Both the position numbers and the translations under genes were made by a program. A stretch of 64,000 nucleotides of DNA, from the IMG/VR virus record IMGVR_UViG_3300006793_000015, positions 50,470 through 114,469 of that record; one strand, 5' to 3'. Below are positions 16,791 to 26,103 of the stretch, one piece after another (positions within the stretch are counted from its first letter, which is position 1; each line of letters starts with the position of its first letter). This DNA is from a virus. The notes beneath the pieces are model-generated. The model searched no databases. It was not told where the DNA came from and saw only the letters and a program-made list of their open reading frames with translations.

Positions 16791-16809
16791 AGATGAACGT
16801 AGTTCATCT
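16791..16809 (+). repeat. inverted repeat spanning the start codon at 16793
   Basis: AGATGAAC-gta-GTTCATCT is a perfect 8-bp stem with a 3-nt loop that contains the first ATG of the transferase-like gene. A second stem, TAGTTC/GAACTA (16766-16771 with 16786-16791), lies just upstream. Together they could occlude initiation or mark M8 (16814) as the true start. Confidence 0.55.
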
Positions 16810-17524
16810 CATAATGCAGAAACAAATAAAAACATCTTTCGGAAAACAAGAAAATAGAGAAATTATTATTAATGAGATATCTTTGACTGATGTTTCTGCA
16901 GAAGAAGAACATTTAGCAATAGAGCAAGGATTTCTTATTGATGTTTTAGATGATGAATATTGGTTTATGTCGCGATCCACTCGTGTTATTACTAATAGCG
17001 TTGATGCGAAGGAATACGACGGAAAATGGGAACTAGTAGAAACTCTTACTCCAGACCTTATTAAGATTCTGCGTAAAATATTAAATCAATACGTACAAAA
17101 ACATAACTTCAAAGACTTTGAACGGTCATTAAACGAAACTAAAAGAACAAAGTTTTTTATCTACTATCATAATAGTAGAATAGTTGCGTTTACCAAGATG
17201 CAATTTTATCCTGAAATTGATCAAAGCGTAGAGCATCCACATAAAAGTGTTGAAACATGTATGTTTGCGTGGGACTATAAAAATCCAGAACTACGTCTCG
17301 GAGAAGTAACACTACAGCACGAAGTATATTGGGCACAACAAGAAGGATTTAAGTATTTGTATATAGGTCCTGGGTATGAGAAAAGCAGTATCTATAAATC
17401 AAATATTTCTGGATTTGAATGGTGGACAGGTATGGAGTGGAGTAAAGATACTGTTGAGTATAAAGAGTTGTGTAAGCGTGACAGTAAAATAAGAAGTTTT
17501 AAAGCGTTAACTTCTTTAGACTAG
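16793..17524 (+). CDS. GNAT-fold protein resembling the C-terminal domain of arginyl-tRNA-protein transferase
   Basis: A 243-residue protein. The C-terminal region LRLGEVTLQHEVYWAQQEGF followed by KYLYIGPGYEKSSIYK and FEWWTGMEW matches the layout of ATE/Bpt transferases (LG-x-x-x-L-x-EI-x-x-A, YLYLGY, then YK and a W-containing tail), which have an acyltransferase fold and move an amino acid from tRNA to protein N-termini. The cysteine motif of the ATE N-terminal domain is absent, so the substrate may differ. Either the ATG at 16793 or M8 at 16814 could be the start; neither has a clear ribosome-binding site, and the first lies in a hairpin. Its end overlaps the convergent minus gene by 26 nt. 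Function is inference. Confidence 0.5.
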   Translation: MNVVHLIMQKQIKTSFGKQENREIIINEISLTDVSAEEEHLAIEQGFLIDVLDDEYWFMSRSTRVITNSVDAKEYDGKWELVETLTPDLIKILRKILNQYVQKHNFKDFERSLNETKRTKFFIYYHNSRIVAFTKMQFYPEIDQSVEHPHKSVETCMFAWDYKNPELRLGEVTLQHEVYWAQQEGFKYLYIGPGYEKSSIYKSNISGFEWWTGMEWSKDTVEYKELCKRDSKIRSFKALTSLD

Positions 17525-18041
17525 CTGGAATTTCTTCAAAACGCCAAAGCGTAACCCACTCTAAATAATCTTTAGGCCAATTTTTATAATAGTCTGTGTT
17601 TTTTGCAAGTTGTTCTGATGCATGGTTTAACACACTTAGTCTTGCCATTAAACATAAAATACATTTACCAAAGTTTAACACTAATTTACCTATACGCTCT
17701 TCACGTTCCGGATGATCATCAAGTATAACAATGTCTAGTGGCATTAGTTCGTCATTTACTGCTTCTGTAATATTGGCAACTTCTTCTTCAGAATAGTTTT
17801 CAGTTGGAGTTAGTATAGCGATAACCTCTACTTTGCCCTCATTGTCCTCGTCAGTCCAGTTACGCCCTAAGTCTAACAAGTGTTCTTCTAAGTCATCATA
17901 TACAAATTTAAAACGAATTGTATTGTTATCTACAGTTGGCTTTGCATAAGGACACACAGGTAGATTACCTAACTCTGCTTGCGGTTTAGCAAGGAAAGTT
18001 TTTATCCAGTCTTTTAAATCGTTAATAAGTTCTTGTTCCAT
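17499..18041 (-). CDS. conserved hypothetical protein with CPYAK motif
   Basis: A 180-residue acidic protein that I do not recognise with confidence. An N-terminal LINDLKDWIKTFLAKPQAEL helix is followed by LPVCPYAKPTV (about residues 27-37), loosely like the LCPFAK motif of DUF1415 proteins. A second cysteine pair occurs in FGKCILCLMARLSV. The C-terminus has aromatic residues (YYKNWPKDYLEWVTLW). No catalytic triad or membrane segment is obvious. Its ATG overlaps the stop of the upstream -1-frame extension of the gp26-like gene (TAATG), so it is translated with the hub-assembly genes. The 3' end overlaps the convergent transferase-like gene. Confidence 0.6.
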   Translation of the reverse strand: MEQELINDLKDWIKTFLAKPQAELGNLPVCPYAKPTVDNNTIRFKFVYDDLEEHLLDLGRNWTDEDNEGKVEVIAILTPTENYSEEEVANITEAVNDELMPLDIVILDDHPEREERIGKLVLNFGKCILCLMARLSVLNHASEQLAKNTDYYKNWPKDYLEWVTLWRFEEIPASLKKLTL

Positions 18042-18274
18042 TAGAAGTATGGTAGCCCCGAATCTTTTGTTATTTTTAAGTTTTCTTCTACAATCTCTGT
18101 TAGCAATTGTCTTTCTTTTAAAGAAGTATTGAACATTTCATTAATAGTAAAGCCACCTCTCATAAACCAAGCAAATTTGTAAATTTCTTTTTTAATGACT
18201 TCTACCTGTTTCTCGTAATTAGCAATTAATTCTAATACTTCTTCAAAACCTAATGATAAAAGCCTTAGGCGAAA
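18041..18274 (-). CDS. gp51-like C-terminal extension reached by -1 frameshift from the gp26-like gene
   Basis: A 77-codon open frame with no in-frame ATG until its middle (18163 region, MRGG). Its sequence includes YKFAWFMRGGFTINEMFNTS and ENLKITKDSGLPYF, the pattern of small hub-assembly proteins that follow gp26 in T4-like phages (gene 51 follows gene 26 in T4). It lies in the -1 frame relative to the gp26-like gene and opens exactly at the slippery heptamer A-AAT-TTT at 18280-18274, three codons before the gp26 stop. Frameshifting would yield a fusion of 277 + 77 = 354 residues. Internal initiation at MRGG would give only 40 residues and has no ribosome-binding site. The stop overlaps the next gene's ATG. 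Confidence 0.7.
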   Translation of the reverse strand, partial: FRLRLLSLGFEEVLELIANYEKQVEVIKKEIYKFAWFMRGGFTINEMFNTSLKERQLLTEIVEENLKITKDSGLPYF

Positions 18275-19104
18275 AAATTTGCATAATCAAAAATTATTGG
18301 AGAGTCAAACGCATGGTTACATTTAGGACATTCTATATGCAATGGTTCTAGTGCAGTTTTATCTTTTATTTCTTGTATAGTATTTGTAATTTTCTTAAAA
18401 AGTTTTACACTAGCATTATTCACAAAACCTATAATTTCGTCTTTATCTGTAACCATAGTCCCATCTGGTAATTCAATACCTTTAATACCAGATGATATGC
18501 TATTAATATTAATTTCAGTCATAGTGTTTAATATTTCATTATATATTTCTTTTAGTTCTTCCTCTGACTTATCTTCCATAGTTCCTACTGCTTCAATGGC
18601 TCTTTGCTCTTCAAAAGTTCTTCTTTGAATTAGAGATAAATCTTTATAAGATAGAGGTTTAATATGAACTTTAACTTCACCGTATTTGAGAATATTACTT
18701 TCTACAGACATACTGGCTTGACTTAAATGATCTATGTAATGATTTAAAGTGACTGCATAATTAAATTCTTCCTCACATTCTGAACATTTAAATTCTAATT
18801 CCATGTCGTTTCCGTATGATGCTATTCTAATAGCAACTAAAATAAAATCAACATCAGTAGCAGGAATTTGCCACGGATCCAAAATAGCAGGAATACAACT
18901 TTTAATAACTTGTGCTACCGCCTCTCCTGAAATGAGGGCGTCAGGTGTTTTTAAAATAATATCGTCCTTTGCGGTCATAGCATAAACTGGCACCTCGCTG
19001 GTTGGTGATAAATCTAAACTACCTTCAGGGTAAAATTTTCCCTCATGTGGAATTGAGATATAAATCTCAGGTTGGCGATAATATTGTTCTAGTATGTTAC
19101 TCAT
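18265..19104 (-). CDS. gp26: baseplate hub assembly protein, gp26-like (T4_baseplate family)
   Basis: A 279-residue protein of the T4 gp26 group, needed for baseplate hub assembly. Family-like features: an N-terminal ISIPHEGKFYPEGSLDLSPT segment, then VYAMTAKDDIILKTPDALIS and a DVDFILVAIRIASYG helix. Two cysteine pairs, FKCSECEEEF near residue 107 and IECPKCNHAF near 260, could bind zinc. The gene ends NFFA-stop, and the slippery heptamer just before this stop leads into the gp51-like frame. It precedes the tape measure gene in divergent orientation. Start ATG at 19104 has GAGGATT upstream. Comparable chaperone frameshifts are well known in lambda-type tails (G/GT), not to my knowledge as a standard feature of T4. 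Confidence 0.8.
   Translation of the reverse strand: MSNILEQYYRQPEIYISIPHEGKFYPEGSLDLSPTSEVPVYAMTAKDDIILKTPDALISGEAVAQVIKSCIPAILDPWQIPATDVDFILVAIRIASYGNDMELEFKCSECEEEFNYAVTLNHYIDHLSQASMSVESNILKYGEVKVHIKPLSYKDLSLIQRRTFEEQRAIEAVGTMEDKSEEELKEIYNEILNTMTEININSISSGIKGIELPDGTMVTDKDEIIGFVNNASVKLFKKITNTIQEIKDKTALEPLHIECPKCNHAFDSPIIFDYANFFA
18274..18280 (-). promoter_or_regulatory. slippery heptamer A-AAT-TTT for programmed -1 frameshifting
   Basis: Read on the minus strand in the gp26 frame as GCA-AAT-TTT-TTC-GCC-TAA. The X-XXY-YYZ heptamer is in the correct phase and sits just before the stop. Four bases downstream, CCTAA pairs with TTAGG across an 11-nt loop, a modest stimulatory stem. The -1 frame stays open for 77 codons. 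Confidence 0.7.
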
Positions 19105-19177: not shown

Positions 19178-21310
19178 ATGGCAGACGACGCAATATTACA
19201 ACAAACTAAAGCAAGCATAGACGCACTATTTAATAGCGTTAGCAAATCTTCCAATAGAGCCAAAACAAGCCTTGATGGGTTAAGCAGATCTGCAAATTAT
19301 GCACAAGATAGTCTTAATAATTTAGGTGCAAGTTTTGGTGGCACAACGACAGCAACTGATCAACAGTCACGTGCATCTTACGTTGCAGCCGGCGCCTTAG
19401 GTGTTGCCGCCGGCGCTACCCAACAATACTCTGAGGTTATGAATGCACAGTCTCAAGTAATGGCAGCTGGAATAGCTCAGTCTATGGAAACAATTGAGGA
19501 AGAAGCATCAAAAGGCGGTAGTGGAATGGCAGCCTCAATGAAGGGTTTAATGGCCAAGCTTGGCCCAGTGGGCAAGATATTAACTGGCATCGGAACTGCC
19601 GGATTTGCATTAGGGAAGCAGATGGTAGATATTGGTGATCAAGCATATGCAGGTTGGCAAGAACAAGCAAAAGTGGGTGCAAGTTTTGGCGGTAGTATGG
19701 TTGAGTATACTAAAGCAGTTGGTGTTTCTAAACTAGGTTTTGAAGGATTCAACTCTGTTGTGAGAAACAACGCTGAAGCATTATCAGTTCTTGGCGGCAC
19801 AGTTAATGCTGGTGCTGAAAGATTTGCTAGAACTATGGCAGTTATGGGAGATTTTACTAGAGGCATGACCCAAGGCGTTCATGCAGGAAGATCATATATA
19901 GAAGTAACAAGAATGTTAGGTTTAAGCACATCTGATACTGCTGATTTAATGGCTGATATGAATAGCCAAACTGCGTTAGCAACTAATCTCCGGAAACTTG
20001 ACGACACCGGGCAAGCGAATGCCACCGCTAACTATATTAATCAAATGTCCCAATTAAGTATGCTTACTGGTAAAAGTATTAAAGAACAATCAGCACAAAG
20101 AAAGAAACTAGCAGCCGATGCTCAATTCCAAGCGGCAATTTATAAAATGCCTCTAGAACAACAAACAGCGATGATGGAGGCTTATGAAGAAGCAGTTTCG
20201 CTTGGCGGGCCACAAGCAGGCGAACTATTCAAAGCCGGTGTTACTGGTTCGTTTAAAGGAGTATCTGCAGAAGCCAAGCAGTTAGCGTCAACGGAAATGG
20301 GGCAGGCGTTTCTCGATATGGGACAAACTACGAAATCAGCTGGTATTAATGCAGCTAATGTTTTTGAAGAATCCTTACCGGCATTAAAGGCCGCAATAGA
20401 AAACACAAGGGATACATTTGCTGATTCAGCAGCTGCAGGTGTAGGCGCTGGATTAAATGCATTTAAGCAAAGTTTTAAAACATCTGTTAAACTCGATGCT
20501 ATTCAAGATGCGGCTAACGAGATTGCTCAAAAGACTGGCGTTGCAGGCGGCAATATTGCCAACGCTTTGGAACTTGTATATAAAGATATACACGGTGTAA
20601 GAACAAAGATGGGTCCAGATGGACAACAAGTTGTCGAAGGACAAGGTGACGAAGTTACCCTCGGGTACGCAAATATAGACGCAGTTAAAGAAGAACTTGC
20701 TAACGGAGCGTTACTTGTTGGTATAACCCAGCTAGGGACGCATCTCGAAAGTTTGGCTGGAGGCATGAATTCCCTCGGAGAAAAATTAGGTATAGGACTT
20801 ACTGCTGGTACAGCAACAGATGCAAAGGAATACGAAAATCTACCTATAGAACAGTTAAACGCAACAAACCGTTTTGTAACTAAGGAGCTCCGGACCATTG
20901 GCAATTTTTTCTCAACTCTAACTGGTGTTTTGACAGGTGAAGTAAGTAAAGAAGACTTACAGAAGTCTATGAGTGTTGGCTTTGCGAATTTAGAGACTCA
21001 ATATACAACAAGAGCTGCCAATGCAAAAGAAAAAGAAGTAGGTTCAAAAGAATTTAAGTTGCAAGAACAAGCAAAAATGGCAACTGGGTTAGCATATAAT
21101 GAACGCCCGGGACTGGCCATTGAAAAAATGACAGAACTTAATCAAACTCATGGTGATGAGGTAATATCATTGTCAAAACAACAGGTAGAACTTCTTGATC
21201 AAATTGTAACAAATACTAAGTCTGGAAACAACGCTAATCAAACAGATCCGGATGTTCGCCGACGTAAGCCGGTTGACCCAACCGGCTCCAGTTTGGAGGC
21301 CTTTCAATGA
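19178..21310 (+). CDS. probable tail tape measure protein (gp29 counterpart)
   Basis: A 710-residue, largely helical, Ala/Gln/Ser-rich protein. The first 100 residues are polar with heptad-like spacing; a glycine-rich hydrophobic stretch (GPVGKILTGIGTAGFALGKQ, about residues 126-150) follows, and a coiled-coil-prone end reads VISLSKQQVELLDQIV. This composition and length fit a tape measure or tail-length determinant, which in T4 is gp29 (590 residues). It lies directly beside the gp26/gp51-like assembly genes and upstream of the portal. In lambda-like tails the frameshifted chaperone binds the tape measure, which fits this arrangement. No ribosome-binding site is strong; late box TATAAATA lies 43 nt upstream. 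Assignment rests on composition and position. Confidence 0.65.
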   Translation: MADDAILQQTKASIDALFNSVSKSSNRAKTSLDGLSRSANYAQDSLNNLGASFGGTTTATDQQSRASYVAAGALGVAAGATQQYSEVMNAQSQVMAAGIAQSMETIEEEASKGGSGMAASMKGLMAKLGPVGKILTGIGTAGFALGKQMVDIGDQAYAGWQEQAKVGASFGGSMVEYTKAVGVSKLGFEGFNSVVRNNAEALSVLGGTVNAGAERFARTMAVMGDFTRGMTQGVHAGRSYIEVTRMLGLSTSDTADLMADMNSQTALATNLRKLDDTGQANATANYINQMSQLSMLTGKSIKEQSAQRKKLAADAQFQAAIYKMPLEQQTAMMEAYEEAVSLGGPQAGELFKAGVTGSFKGVSAEAKQLASTEMGQAFLDMGQTTKSAGINAANVFEESLPALKAAIENTRDTFADSAAAGVGAGLNAFKQSFKTSVKLDAIQDAANEIAQKTGVAGGNIANALELVYKDIHGVRTKMGPDGQQVVEGQGDEVTLGYANIDAVKEELANGALLVGITQLGTHLESLAGGMNSLGEKLGIGLTAGTATDAKEYENLPIEQLNATNRFVTKELRTIGNFFSTLTGVLTGEVSKEDLQKSMSVGFANLETQYTTRAANAKEKEVGSKEFKLQEQAKMATGLAYNERPGLAIEKMTELNQTHGDEVISLSKQQVELLDQIVTNTKSGNNANQTDPDVRRRKPVDPTGSSLEAFQ

Positions 21311-23350: not shown

Positions 23351-23559
23351 TCCTTTGTTAAATATATAAAAGGAATGATTTCGCTATGAGTAATAAATTT
23401 GAACAGTTGCTTGAATATATCATCAACGAAGAGCAAGATAAAGCTAAAGAGCTTTTCCATGAAATTATTGTGGATAAATCTCGCGAGATTTATGAAGGCT
23501 TGATTGATGAGCAAGATCTTGAAGCTATCGAAGAGGAAATTGAAGAAGTAGATGAAGAA
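23351..23559 (+). repeat. direct repeat copy 1: promoter, ribosome-binding site and scaffold N-terminus
   Basis: This stretch and 24697-24930 share the TCCTTTGTTAAATAT promoter region, ATAAAAGGA(A/G)TGATTTCGCT leader and about 58 codons of coding sequence, with mostly synonymous or conservative changes. Copy 2 has roughly 28 extra bases in the leader. Confidence 0.85.
23357..23364 (+). promoter_or_regulatory. late promoter-like box GTTAAATA before the PcfJ-like scaffold gene
   Basis: GTTAAATA lies 21 nt before the ATG at 23386, with AAGGA between. The same box recurs before the second scaffold gene. Confidence 0.45.
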
Positions 23560-24642
23560 ATTTCCAAATTTTATAATCAAATATTAACTGAAGCAGATTT
23601 GCCGCCAGGCGAATTGAAAAAGCTCCATAGCGATATAGCCAAGATTCGTCGGGATACAGGTACTCAATCTGCTGAACATAATGCTTTCTTTAAAAAATTA
23701 ACGAAGGAAATTATTAATAATAATGTAGAAGGATTTAAGAATTTTATTAATAAAAAACCTGAGCCTTTAATGCCTTACCAAAAAGGATCTTATGTTGATC
23801 AACCTGAGAAGGCGCAAGATTTAGAATATGTTAAACGTAAGGCACCTGAGCAATGGGAGGCAATTATGGCTGTCCCGGCTGACAGTTCGATGCCCCCTGA
23901 ATTTAAGCCAGGAACTGCAACAGTATATATGCAATTTCATGGTTCAGTAGAAGATGATATTGCTATGTGGGTCAGTAGAGTGTTTGGTGGTGAAGACGCA
24001 GAGATTGAAGATGAAGATGAAGGTGCTCGTCCAGGGCAACATCCTTTTCGGAAATTTTGGGATTTGGTTCATGATGAAGAATTTATGAACAATGCAAACC
24101 CTGGTATTGTAAAAAAACTTACTGCTGTTAAAAAGAAATACATCAATGGCACATACAATCTTTATAATCTTGAAAAAACAACAAAAAAGCTTATGGCTGA
24201 CCTCGGTCAAAGATGGAAACATGATAAAGTAGAAAGGCAACGTTTAGAGACAGAAGCACCAATTATAATGAGATTTGATAATGGTTTTATGTGGGTGCGT
24301 TTAGATTCTATAGAAGAAATGCAACGCGAAGGCGACATGATGCAAAATTGCATTAGTGGTTATTGTCCAGTTGGCATAGAAGCCGATGATGATATAGAAA
24401 CTGGAGCAACTCCCGGTGGCCATTTAATTTATAGTTTGCGTGATAAGAATGGGGAATCTCATATATCTGCAGAATATGATCCAGATGTAGATATGAATAA
24501 TATACAGCCAACAGAAGCATTAGGCAAACAAAATAAAACAGCCATTAACAAATATAAACCATATATTAAAAAATTAAATGACTTCTTTGCAGAGAATCCT
24601 GAAACATTTGGTCCTAAAGGCAACACACAGGAAATGCAATAA
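23386..24642 (+). CDS. scaffold-type N-terminus fused to a PcfJ-like domain
   Basis: A 418-residue protein. Residues 1-58 (MSNKFEQLLEYIINEEQDKA onward) nearly duplicate the N-terminus of the acidic core protein encoded just downstream. The remainder differs completely: a linker with ILTEADLPPG, a basic helical region, then at about 299-402 a domain with MWVRLDSIEEMQREGDMMQN, CISGYCP, HLIYSLRDKNGESHISAEYD and ALGKQNKTAINKYKPYI. This matches the PcfJ-like pattern (HCVGxY, SLRDxxGxPHxTxE, QxxGKxN), a domain of unclear molecular function seen in phages and conjugative elements. The shared N-terminus may target it to the prohead core, so it could be packaged cargo. A terminator follows immediately. 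Confidence 0.7.
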   Translation: MSNKFEQLLEYIINEEQDKAKELFHEIIVDKSREIYEGLIDEQDLEAIEEEIEEVDEEISKFYNQILTEADLPPGELKKLHSDIAKIRRDTGTQSAEHNAFFKKLTKEIINNNVEGFKNFINKKPEPLMPYQKGSYVDQPEKAQDLEYVKRKAPEQWEAIMAVPADSSMPPEFKPGTATVYMQFHGSVEDDIAMWVSRVFGGEDAEIEDEDEGARPGQHPFRKFWDLVHDEEFMNNANPGIVKKLTAVKKKYINGTYNLYNLEKTTKKLMADLGQRWKHDKVERQRLETEAPIIMRFDNGFMWVRLDSIEEMQREGDMMQNCISGYCPVGIEADDDIETGATPGGHLIYSLRDKNGESHISAEYDPDVDMNNIQPTEALGKQNKTAINKYKPYIKKLNDFFAENPETFGPKGNTQEMQ

Positions 24643-24696: not shown

Positions 24697-24930
24697 TCCT
24701 TTGTTAAATATAGATGATATTTTGTAACTTTTATATATAAAAGGAGTGATTTCGCTATGAGTAATAAATTTGAACAGTTGCTAGATTACATCATCAACGA
24801 AGAGCAAGATAAAGCTCGCGAACTTTTCCACGAAGTTGTTGTTGAAAAGTCACGTGAAATTTATGAAGGCTTAATTGATGAACAAGATCTTGATGCTATC
24901 GAAGAAGAGATTGAAGAAGTTGAAGAAGCA
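24697..24930 (+). repeat. direct repeat copy 2: promoter, ribosome-binding site and scaffold N-terminus
   Basis: Second copy of the segment at 23351-23559. Similarity ends at about codon 58, where the two proteins diverge (DEEISKFYN in copy 1, EEAISDEEV in copy 2). GTTAAATA recurs at 24703-24710. Confidence 0.85.
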
Positions 24931-25467
24931 ATCTCAGACGAGGAAGTAGAAGATTTTGTTAGTGATATTGAAGGCGACGAAGAAGGTATGTCTCTAGAAG
25001 ACGCAAGTGAAGAACTTGACGACGCTATGGACATGGAAGATGAAGGTGACTACGAAGGTGACGAAGAAGAAGCCGACGAAGAAACCGACGAAAGAATCAG
25101 TGATTTAGAATCTGCATTTGATGAACTTCAAGCAGAATTCGACAAGTTAATGTCAAGCGTTGAAGGCGATGATGCTGAAGAAGAAGCTGACATGGACGAC
25201 ATGGAAGACGAAATGGAAGAATCCGTTGAGTCAGACGAAGATTTAGAAGAGTCAGAAGAAGTAGTTGCTGAAGCTGCTGAACTAAAGCCAGTGCCTGCCC
25301 CAACAGGCGGCGCAAGTGAAGGTTCATCACCAGTTGCATCAGGTGGTAAGGCAAGCAATGATGCTCATGAACCAGGTGCAATGTCATCAGGCGAAGGTAA
25401 GAGTGCCCCTGCTCCAAAGGCAGACGATATGGACATGACTACAGAACCAGACATGAAGAAGGTTTAA
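24757..25467 (+). CDS. acidic prohead core/scaffold protein (gp68-like position)
   Basis: A 236-residue, extremely acidic protein. The N-terminal 58 residues form a helical segment shared with the upstream PcfJ-like protein; residues about 60-190 are dominated by Glu and Asp (DEEGMSLEDASEELDDAMD), and the end is Pro/Ala/Ser-rich (PAPTGGASEGSSPV, SAPAPKADD). It occupies the position of gp68, the small prohead core protein between portal and protease in T4. Acidic core proteins are cut to peptides by gp21 during head maturation; multiple L/I-x-E triplets are present. AAGGAG precedes the ATG by a suitable distance. The gp21 gene starts 12 nt downstream. Confidence 0.7.
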   Translation: MSNKFEQLLDYIINEEQDKARELFHEVVVEKSREIYEGLIDEQDLDAIEEEIEEVEEAISDEEVEDFVSDIEGDEEGMSLEDASEELDDAMDMEDEGDYEGDEEEADEETDERISDLESAFDELQAEFDKLMSSVEGDDAEEEADMDDMEDEMEESVESDEDLEESEEVVAEAAELKPVPAPTGGASEGSSPVASGGKASNDAHEPGAMSSGEGKSAPAPKADDMDMTTEPDMKKV

Positions 25468-25479
25468 CAGGTAAACGAA

Positions 25480-26103
25480 ATGACTTATCTAAGAGAACAC
25501 TTGACATTTGACCAAGCTCGTATTGTAACTGAGACCGATTCAGAAGGCAAGAATTTATACATGAAGGGTATTTGCATCCAAGGTGGTGTAAAGAACGCTA
25601 ATAAACGTGTATATCCTGTTGATGAAATCCAAACGGCGGTATCAAGTTTGAATGAGCAAATCAATCAAGGTAACTCTGTTCTAGGCGAAGTTGACCATCC
25701 AGACGATCTTAAGATTAACTTAGATCGTGTTTCCCACATGGTTTCAGAAATGTGGATGGATGGCCCAAACGGTTATGGTAAACTTAAAGTCCTGCCAACA
25801 CCAATGGGTAACTTAGTTAAAACGATGCTAGAGTCAGGTGTTAAATTAGGAGTTTCATCCAGAGGAAGCGGCAATGTTCGTGAAACCTCTGGAGACGTTT
25901 CAGATTTTGAAATCGTTACTATTGATATAGTAGCACAACCCAGTGCTCCAGACGCATATCCAACAGCAATTTATGAAGGTCTCTTAAACATGAGAGGCGG
26001 GCATAGAGTGCTTGAGGCAGCTGCTGAAGTACGTGAGAATCAAAAGGCGCAAAAATACCTAAAAGAAAGTATTTTACGCCTCATAAAGGACATAAAAATT
26101 TAG
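25480..26103 (+). CDS. gp21: prohead core protease gp21
   Basis: A 207-residue serine protease that cleaves core and capsid proteins during head maturation. The catalytic histidine lies in LGEVDHPDD (H73) and the nucleophile in LGVSSRGSG (S126/S127), followed by DFEIVTIDIVAQPSAPDA with the conserved acidic residue. The N-terminal GICIQGGVKNANKRVYP is also typical. T4 gp21 is 212 residues. It is flanked by the core protein and gp22, the same order as in T4. Candidate cleavage targets nearby include gp23 (YLAE at residues 38-41) and the two scaffold-type proteins. Confidence 0.95.
   Translation: MTYLREHLTFDQARIVTETDSEGKNLYMKGICIQGGVKNANKRVYPVDEIQTAVSSLNEQINQGNSVLGEVDHPDDLKINLDRVSHMVSEMWMDGPNGYGKLKVLPTPMGNLVKTMLESGVKLGVSSRGSGNVRETSGDVSDFEIVTIDIVAQPSAPDAYPTAIYEGLLNMRGGHRVLEAAAEVRENQKAQKYLKESILRLIKDIKI

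Follow-up and report, generated by a model that had tools for sequence, protein, structure and literature searches.

Analysis of a 64,000-nucleotide stretch of viral DNA (the window) indicates that two proteins are probably made from one mRNA by a -1 frameshift at U_UUU_UUC, and that they most likely form a tail assembly chaperone pair of the lambda G/GT type (probability roughly 0.9). An earlier note on this DNA had described hub proteins fused by programmed -1 frameshifting. Its frameshift interpretation was largely right, and 'tail assembly chaperone' appears a better reading of the gp26/gp51-like products than 'hub protein', which is the old T4 label for gp26 and gp51.

Locus and proposed mechanism

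The features of the locus are as follows.

18265..19104, minus strand: gp26-like 0-frame ORF, putative short product (TAC-N), 279 aa; PF12322, PHROG 150, profile match to the N-part of T4-like gp26/gp51
18271..18277, minus strand: slippery heptamer T_TTT_TTC, where both Phe-tRNAs would re-pair to TTT TTT; invariant in 175/175 non-redundant junctions and 160/160 junction-independent relatives
18274..18280, minus strand: overlapping heptamer A_AAT_TTT in X_XXY_YYZ phase; relatives have AGT, ACT, CAT, GAT or CGT contexts instead
18265..18267, minus strand: 0-frame stop TAA, first base 10 nt from the heptamer start
18041..18271, minus strand: -1 frame extension, gp51 C-terminal-like ('T') part, 76 codons and stop; base 18271 is read twice
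18255..18264, minus strand: predicted stimulatory stem, 5' arm, GGCUUUUAUC; 6 nt past the heptamer, in the minimum-free-energy structure of the window, stem kept in relatives
18197..18206, minus strand: predicted stimulatory stem, 3' arm, GGUAGAAGUC; closes a 48-nt loop, synonymous-codon shuffles in relatives
17499..18041, minus strand: next gene, DUF6875-like, outside the chaperone; its start overlaps the -1 frame stop (TAATG)
19178..21310, plus strand: 710-aa ORF, divergent, adjoining the gp26 gene; position alone makes it a tape measure candidate

The gp26-like ORF ends ...GAT TAT GCA AAT TTT TTC GCC TAA on the minus strand, confirming the ending (GCA-AAT-TTT-TTC-GCC-TAA) given previously. 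A -1 shift at the junction reads ...N F F R L R L L S L G F E E V L..., open until the TAA at 18043-18041. The long open -1 frame, the TAATG overlap with the next gene and the 354-residue length of the fused product were all as the earlier note had them, the last agreeing with the computed product of 354 aa. One gp26-like gene and one 3' part were found in the 114-kb virus record, which may be incomplete. The portal protein of this record is nearest to that of Phosso (55%), followed by the PA5oct group (51%).

In the proposed mechanism the efficiency of the shift is presumed to be such that the majority of ribosomes would terminate at the TAA at 18267-18265, releasing the 279-aa gp26-like protein (TAC-N). 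A minority would slip by -1 at U_UUU_UUC with Phe-tRNAs in the P and A sites, tandem slippage moving both from U_UUU_UUC to UUU_UUU, and a stem 6 nt downstream would stall the ribosome at this point. Slipped ribosomes would then make a 354-aa fusion carrying the gp51-like tail (TAC-NC) as the minority product. By analogy with lambda gpG/gpGT, both forms together most likely act as a tail assembly chaperone. The tape measure protein may be contacted by the shared part and linked to tail tube subunits by the tail part.

Conservation of the slip site

All 80 loci from a first search, made with the 3' part, had TTTTTTC at the gp26 stop. One seed of that search was the junction peptide KFFRLRLL, and it was therefore superseded as evidence by two junction-free searches, one with gp26 lacking its last residues and one with the 3' part lacking its first residues; each contributed its best 80 among more than 580 relatives. 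In-phase T_TTT_TTC was present by the gp26 stop in 80/80 of these best gp26-anchored relatives and likewise in 80/80 of the best relatives anchored on the 3' part. The -1 frame continues for at least 60 codons past the stop in 76 of the 80 best gp26-anchored relatives, and the other four apparently reach the end of the contig. Since in-phase TTTTTTC occurs in 160/160 junction-free relatives (the best 80 of more than 580 per search), the junction is not a chance arrangement. The check that the earlier note had proposed, for a conserved heptamer and -1 frame in relatives, thus found the heptamer region and the frame both kept.

The seven bases of the heptamer are without any variation in 175 non-redundant junctions; for a small part of this set (first search and cultured phages) the motif had been a requirement, which was not so for the 160 junction-free loci. 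The base 5' of the heptamer in the 175 junctions is A, G or C and never T, and the T run is exactly six in 175/175 and never longer. The 0-frame stop lies at +10, +13, +16, +19 or +25, depending on the clade. Elsewhere in the gp26 genes of the relatives only 74% of Phe codons are TTT (1206/1627). Among the 57 window ORFs of at least 100 aa, one has in-phase TTTTTTC in its last 33 nt, presumably the gp26-like ORF.

The earlier note had placed the slip at A_AAT_TTT (18274-18280). This heptamer is present and in phase, but it is only partly conserved among relatives and was rejected as the slip site; T_TTT_TTC (18277-18271) is favoured because it is the conserved one. A slip at A_AAT_TTT would yield the same protein, so mass spectrometry would be blind to which heptamer is used.

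Cultured phages found via gp26 with the same TTTTTTC junction were Atu_ph07, Phosso, PA5oct, 121Q, Vibrio 2.275.O and RaK2. Also reached via gp26 were the cultured phages S-SSM6a, S-RIM8, avDM6 and the KVP40-type phi-pp2, with the same heptamer and -1 frame. The heptamer is common to jumbo phages (RaK2, 121Q, PA5oct, Atu_ph07, Phosso), cyanophages, a KVP40-type vibriophage and an Aeromonas phage.

Two explanations would place the frame change in the nucleic acid or in the data. Slippage of RNA polymerase on the T6 run, giving a mixed mRNA population, would suit a homopolymer run found in every relative. Such slippage would tolerate or even favour longer runs, yet the run is fixed at six and constant in codon phase, C invariably comes next, and a covarying stem begins 6 nt past the heptamer, the textbook arrangement of ribosomal -1 frameshifting; transcriptional slippage is accordingly a very improbable source of the long product. 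An assembly error, or decay of a single gene through a spurious indel, could also put a frame change at a homopolymer, where sequencing errors arise. However, independent datasets give the same architecture in 160/160 relatives (the best 80 of more than 580 per search), cultured phages have it too, and run-length variants of T6 are absent among the relatives. These comparisons already refute an assembly error or decayed gene, and its probability is negligible.

Coding in two frames and translation starts

Substitutions were counted by codon position in 37 independent sequence pairs. Over the final 120 nt before the heptamer, most of them hit the third codon position of the 0 frame (587 vs 261 and 162). 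Downstream, in the last segment counted, most hit the third codon position of the -1 frame (389 vs 152 and 62). The frame under coding selection therefore switches at the heptamer in these 37 pairs. Although the distance of the 0-frame stop varies and the codons differ, the -1 frame retains the peptide FFRxR(L/I)L.

An alternative is that the 3' ORF is an ordinary separate gene, translated by coupled re-initiation at a start overlapping the gp26 stop. Some relatives have such an ATG (TAATG in 121Q, ATGA in Atu_ph07 and Phosso), and in many there is a TTG at +8 or a different start codon for the 3' ORF. In the window, the first ATG, GTG or TTG of the -1 frame is at +104 nt after the stop, within the conserved WFMRGG (the position was read from relatives L004 and L005, which have the same sequence as the window there). 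This bears out the earlier statement that the 3' frame has no upstream start of its own. ATG is absent from the first 75 nt in 85 of the 175 non-redundant junctions, 32 of the 175 have no common start of any kind in this interval, and a start with an SD-like motif was found in only 16 of the 175. A separate start for the second ORF, the finding that had been expected to speak against a frameshift, is thus missing in usable form from many homologues, the window included. Furthermore, the conserved -1-frame peptide FFRxRLL precedes any start, and re-initiation leaves the letter-for-letter invariance of TTTTTTC unexplained. Re-initiation is improbable as the general route to the 3' product, and -1 frameshifting is preferred. 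Sinorhizobium phage phiM9 has TTTTTTG at the end of gp26 and an overlapping ATG at which the gp51 part begins; this is possibly a lineage that has gone from frameshifting to coupled initiation.

Downstream RNA structure

Every possible stem was scanned across 46 junctions. The top-scoring helix pairs columns 17-29 with columns 78-90 and is paired in 80.6% of cells. Its covariation was 0.286; shuffles gave 0.171, with 0/500 reaching the observed value, and sliding the helix gave no more than 0.130. Folding energy directly past the heptamer was well below that of dinucleotide shuffles in the +10 clade (mean z -4.34) and moderately so in the +19 clade (-1.62), and the excess in segments adjoining the stem region was about 0. 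Synonymous-codon shuffles with the -1 protein held fixed gave mean z values of -3.71 (n = 95) and -2.20 (n = 75), with a control at -0.45. The arms differ by clade (GGCUUUUGA/UCAAAAGCC, GGCUUCUA/UAGAAGCC, GCCUCCU/AGGAGGC and GGCUCUUUGU/ACAAAGAGCC), which argues for selection on pairing and not on the peptide.

The minimum-energy fold of the window pairs GGCUUUUAUC (18264-18255) with GGUAGAAGUC (18206-18197), including three G-U type pairs. The stem begins 6 nt past the heptamer, inside the 5-9 nt spacing of -1 stimulators. The window itself gives a weak signal (synonymous-shuffle p 0.063; dinucleotide z between about -0.7 and -1.0), and the case for this stem therefore comes from the relatives. 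RaK2 and avDM6 have the heptamer and showed no excess structure in the shuffle test. RNAalifold returned no pairs from a mixed alignment, probably because clades with different stems were combined in it. No Rfam family fits the element.

A different stem, CCTAA/TTAGG, had been suggested by the earlier note. It was rejected, TTAGG being TTAAA in the closest relative (L006); the conserved stem is GGCUUUUAUC/GGUAGAAGUC.

Protein identity and function

The gp26-like ORF matches PF12322 (T4_baseplate; E 9e-18, 65.2 bits, cut-off 24.5) and the PHROG 150 baseplate hub family (E 8e-19). A profile of the gp26 family matched the N-parts of T4-like gp26 and gp51 with a probability of 98.3. The fused family (N part, junction and 3' part) is collinear with T4 gp51 and with other T4-like fusions over profile columns 69-393 (hhalign, E 6e-16), and in this alignment the junction FFRLRLL is placed on VFKLLV of T4 gp51. 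The proposed gp51-like identity is upheld by this end-to-end alignment of the fused family. The 3' part by itself matched no family and had weak similarity to the C-terminus of T4 gp51 (probability 29.5). A sequence search of the PDB with gp26 gave no match. A Foldseek search of the PDB with the gp26 model (pLDDT 92) gave none at E <= 0.001, known chaperones included; its matches were to viral models only, many labelled baseplate hub or T4-like hub assembly.

The chaperone role is suggested by the published assignment of T4-like chaperones and by the parallel with lambda G/GT (PMC5009743). In two citing papers (PMC10274946, PMC12846349), Vladimirov, Gautam and Davidson (Virology 2022) are reported to have assigned gp26 as TAC-N and gp51 as TAC-NC. 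Poly-T shift signals in T4-like chaperone genes are credited to the same work (PMC12846349), and some T4-like phages are described as using two genes, a short one and a longer fusion, in place of frameshifting (PMC10274946). Going by these citations, the frameshift of the T4-like group has probably been published already.

The frameshift could be real and its product a part of the baseplate hub. The PF12322 and PHROG 150 names agree with the old T4 genetics in making gp26 and gp51 hub proteins, and the gp26 model has no fold match to a solved chaperone. Against this, a short form with a rare long form made by a -1 shift beside a probable tape measure gene is a hallmark of chaperones, and the 2022 assignment, to the extent that the citing papers give it (PMC10274946, PMC12846349), includes some T4-like phages in which the short form and the longer fusion each have a gene. 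A hub role is considered unlikely, and a tail assembly chaperone is preferred.

The probable tape measure gene of the earlier note fits by position only: the 710-aa ORF adjoins the gp26-like gene, as a structural protein does at the same place in PA5oct, 121Q and RaK2. Sequence gave this identity no backing, since neither Pfam nor PHROG yielded a convincing family and the ORF resembles none of the gp26-adjoining proteins of related phages in sequence.

Comparison with known systems

T4 gp26 and gp51 share the PF12322 N-part, and the fused product described here is collinear with T4 gp51. Genes 26 and 51 are indeed separate in T4, as had been said, and also in Aeromonas phage 44RR, where they likewise lie apart and are divergent, whereas here one mRNA is read with a -1 shift. 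Separate short and long genes as in T4 were not found in the 114-kb record; they are a trait of the T4 branch and not of the whole family.

Cyanophages and KVP40/avDM6-type phages, with gp26 and a short gp51, have the same TTTTTTC heptamer and the same -1 frame, but their 3' parts and stem sequences differ from those here. Annotated cyanophage gp51 is about 20% of the length of T4 gp51, as expected for the tail of a fusion, and Aeh1 was reported without gp51 (PMC3037559). Both the short cyanophage gp51 and the missing Aeh1 gp51 fit an unannotated shift. In the annotations of S-SSM6a, S-RIM8, avDM6 and phi-pp2, gp51 is a short internal ORF or is absent, and the -1 frame from the gp26 heptamer restores the full tail. 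None of the related phages examined has the long chaperone form in its deposited annotation. Recognising the shift restores the full-length TAC-NC and gives the exact site, and the records of S-SSM6a, S-RIM8, avDM6, phi-pp2, RaK2, PA5oct, 121Q, Atu_ph07 and Phosso would merit a joined CDS.

In lambda-type systems a short/long pair made by frameshifting lies beside the tape measure gene; of this, the frameshift is present here, and the 710-aa neighbour fits a tape measure gene by position only. Lambda gpG/gpGT differs in its shift site, and the gp26-like gene and the tape measure candidate here lie in divergent orientation. The chaperone of phage Adele (Vandenendeviridae/Andersonviridae) likewise uses a -1 shift, at an invariant GTTTTT with an unannotated 3' frame, but it belongs to another phage group and is another protein; the available part of the paper describes no covarying stem (PMC12846349). 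No published account of the covarying RNA element found here was located, the work of Vladimirov et al. (2022) being represented by papers that cite it, and the element may be undescribed.

Frameshifting is probably the older state, the long form having later become a separate gene, 51, in T4. A -1 shift at U_UUU_UUC with a lineage-specific covarying stem may have been ancestral to the T4-like supergroup, T4-type phages having swapped in a second gene with VFKLLV at the old junction FFRLRLL; this history is put forward tentatively, at slightly below even odds. If it is true, the stimulatory element and the loss event would both be undescribed. The phages form a natural series, with a shift in most T4-like groups and two genes in T4 and 44RR, which lets one ask how a fixed protein ratio set by frameshifting gives way to two separately expressed genes.

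Other observations in the window

The ORF at 16793-17524 (plus strand) has a sub-threshold match to the arginyl-tRNA-protein transferase C-terminal domain (PF04377, E 7e-4), which is unusual in a phage. The ORFs at 23386-24642 and 24757-25467 (both plus strand) have their first ~70 residues in common (76% identical). The product of 24757-25467 resembles an acidic scaffold protein and adjoins the prohead protease at 25480-26103 (PF03420). The product of 23386-24642 (418 aa, with a PcfJ match below threshold) is possibly a cargo protein with a scaffold-type capsid-targeting leader.
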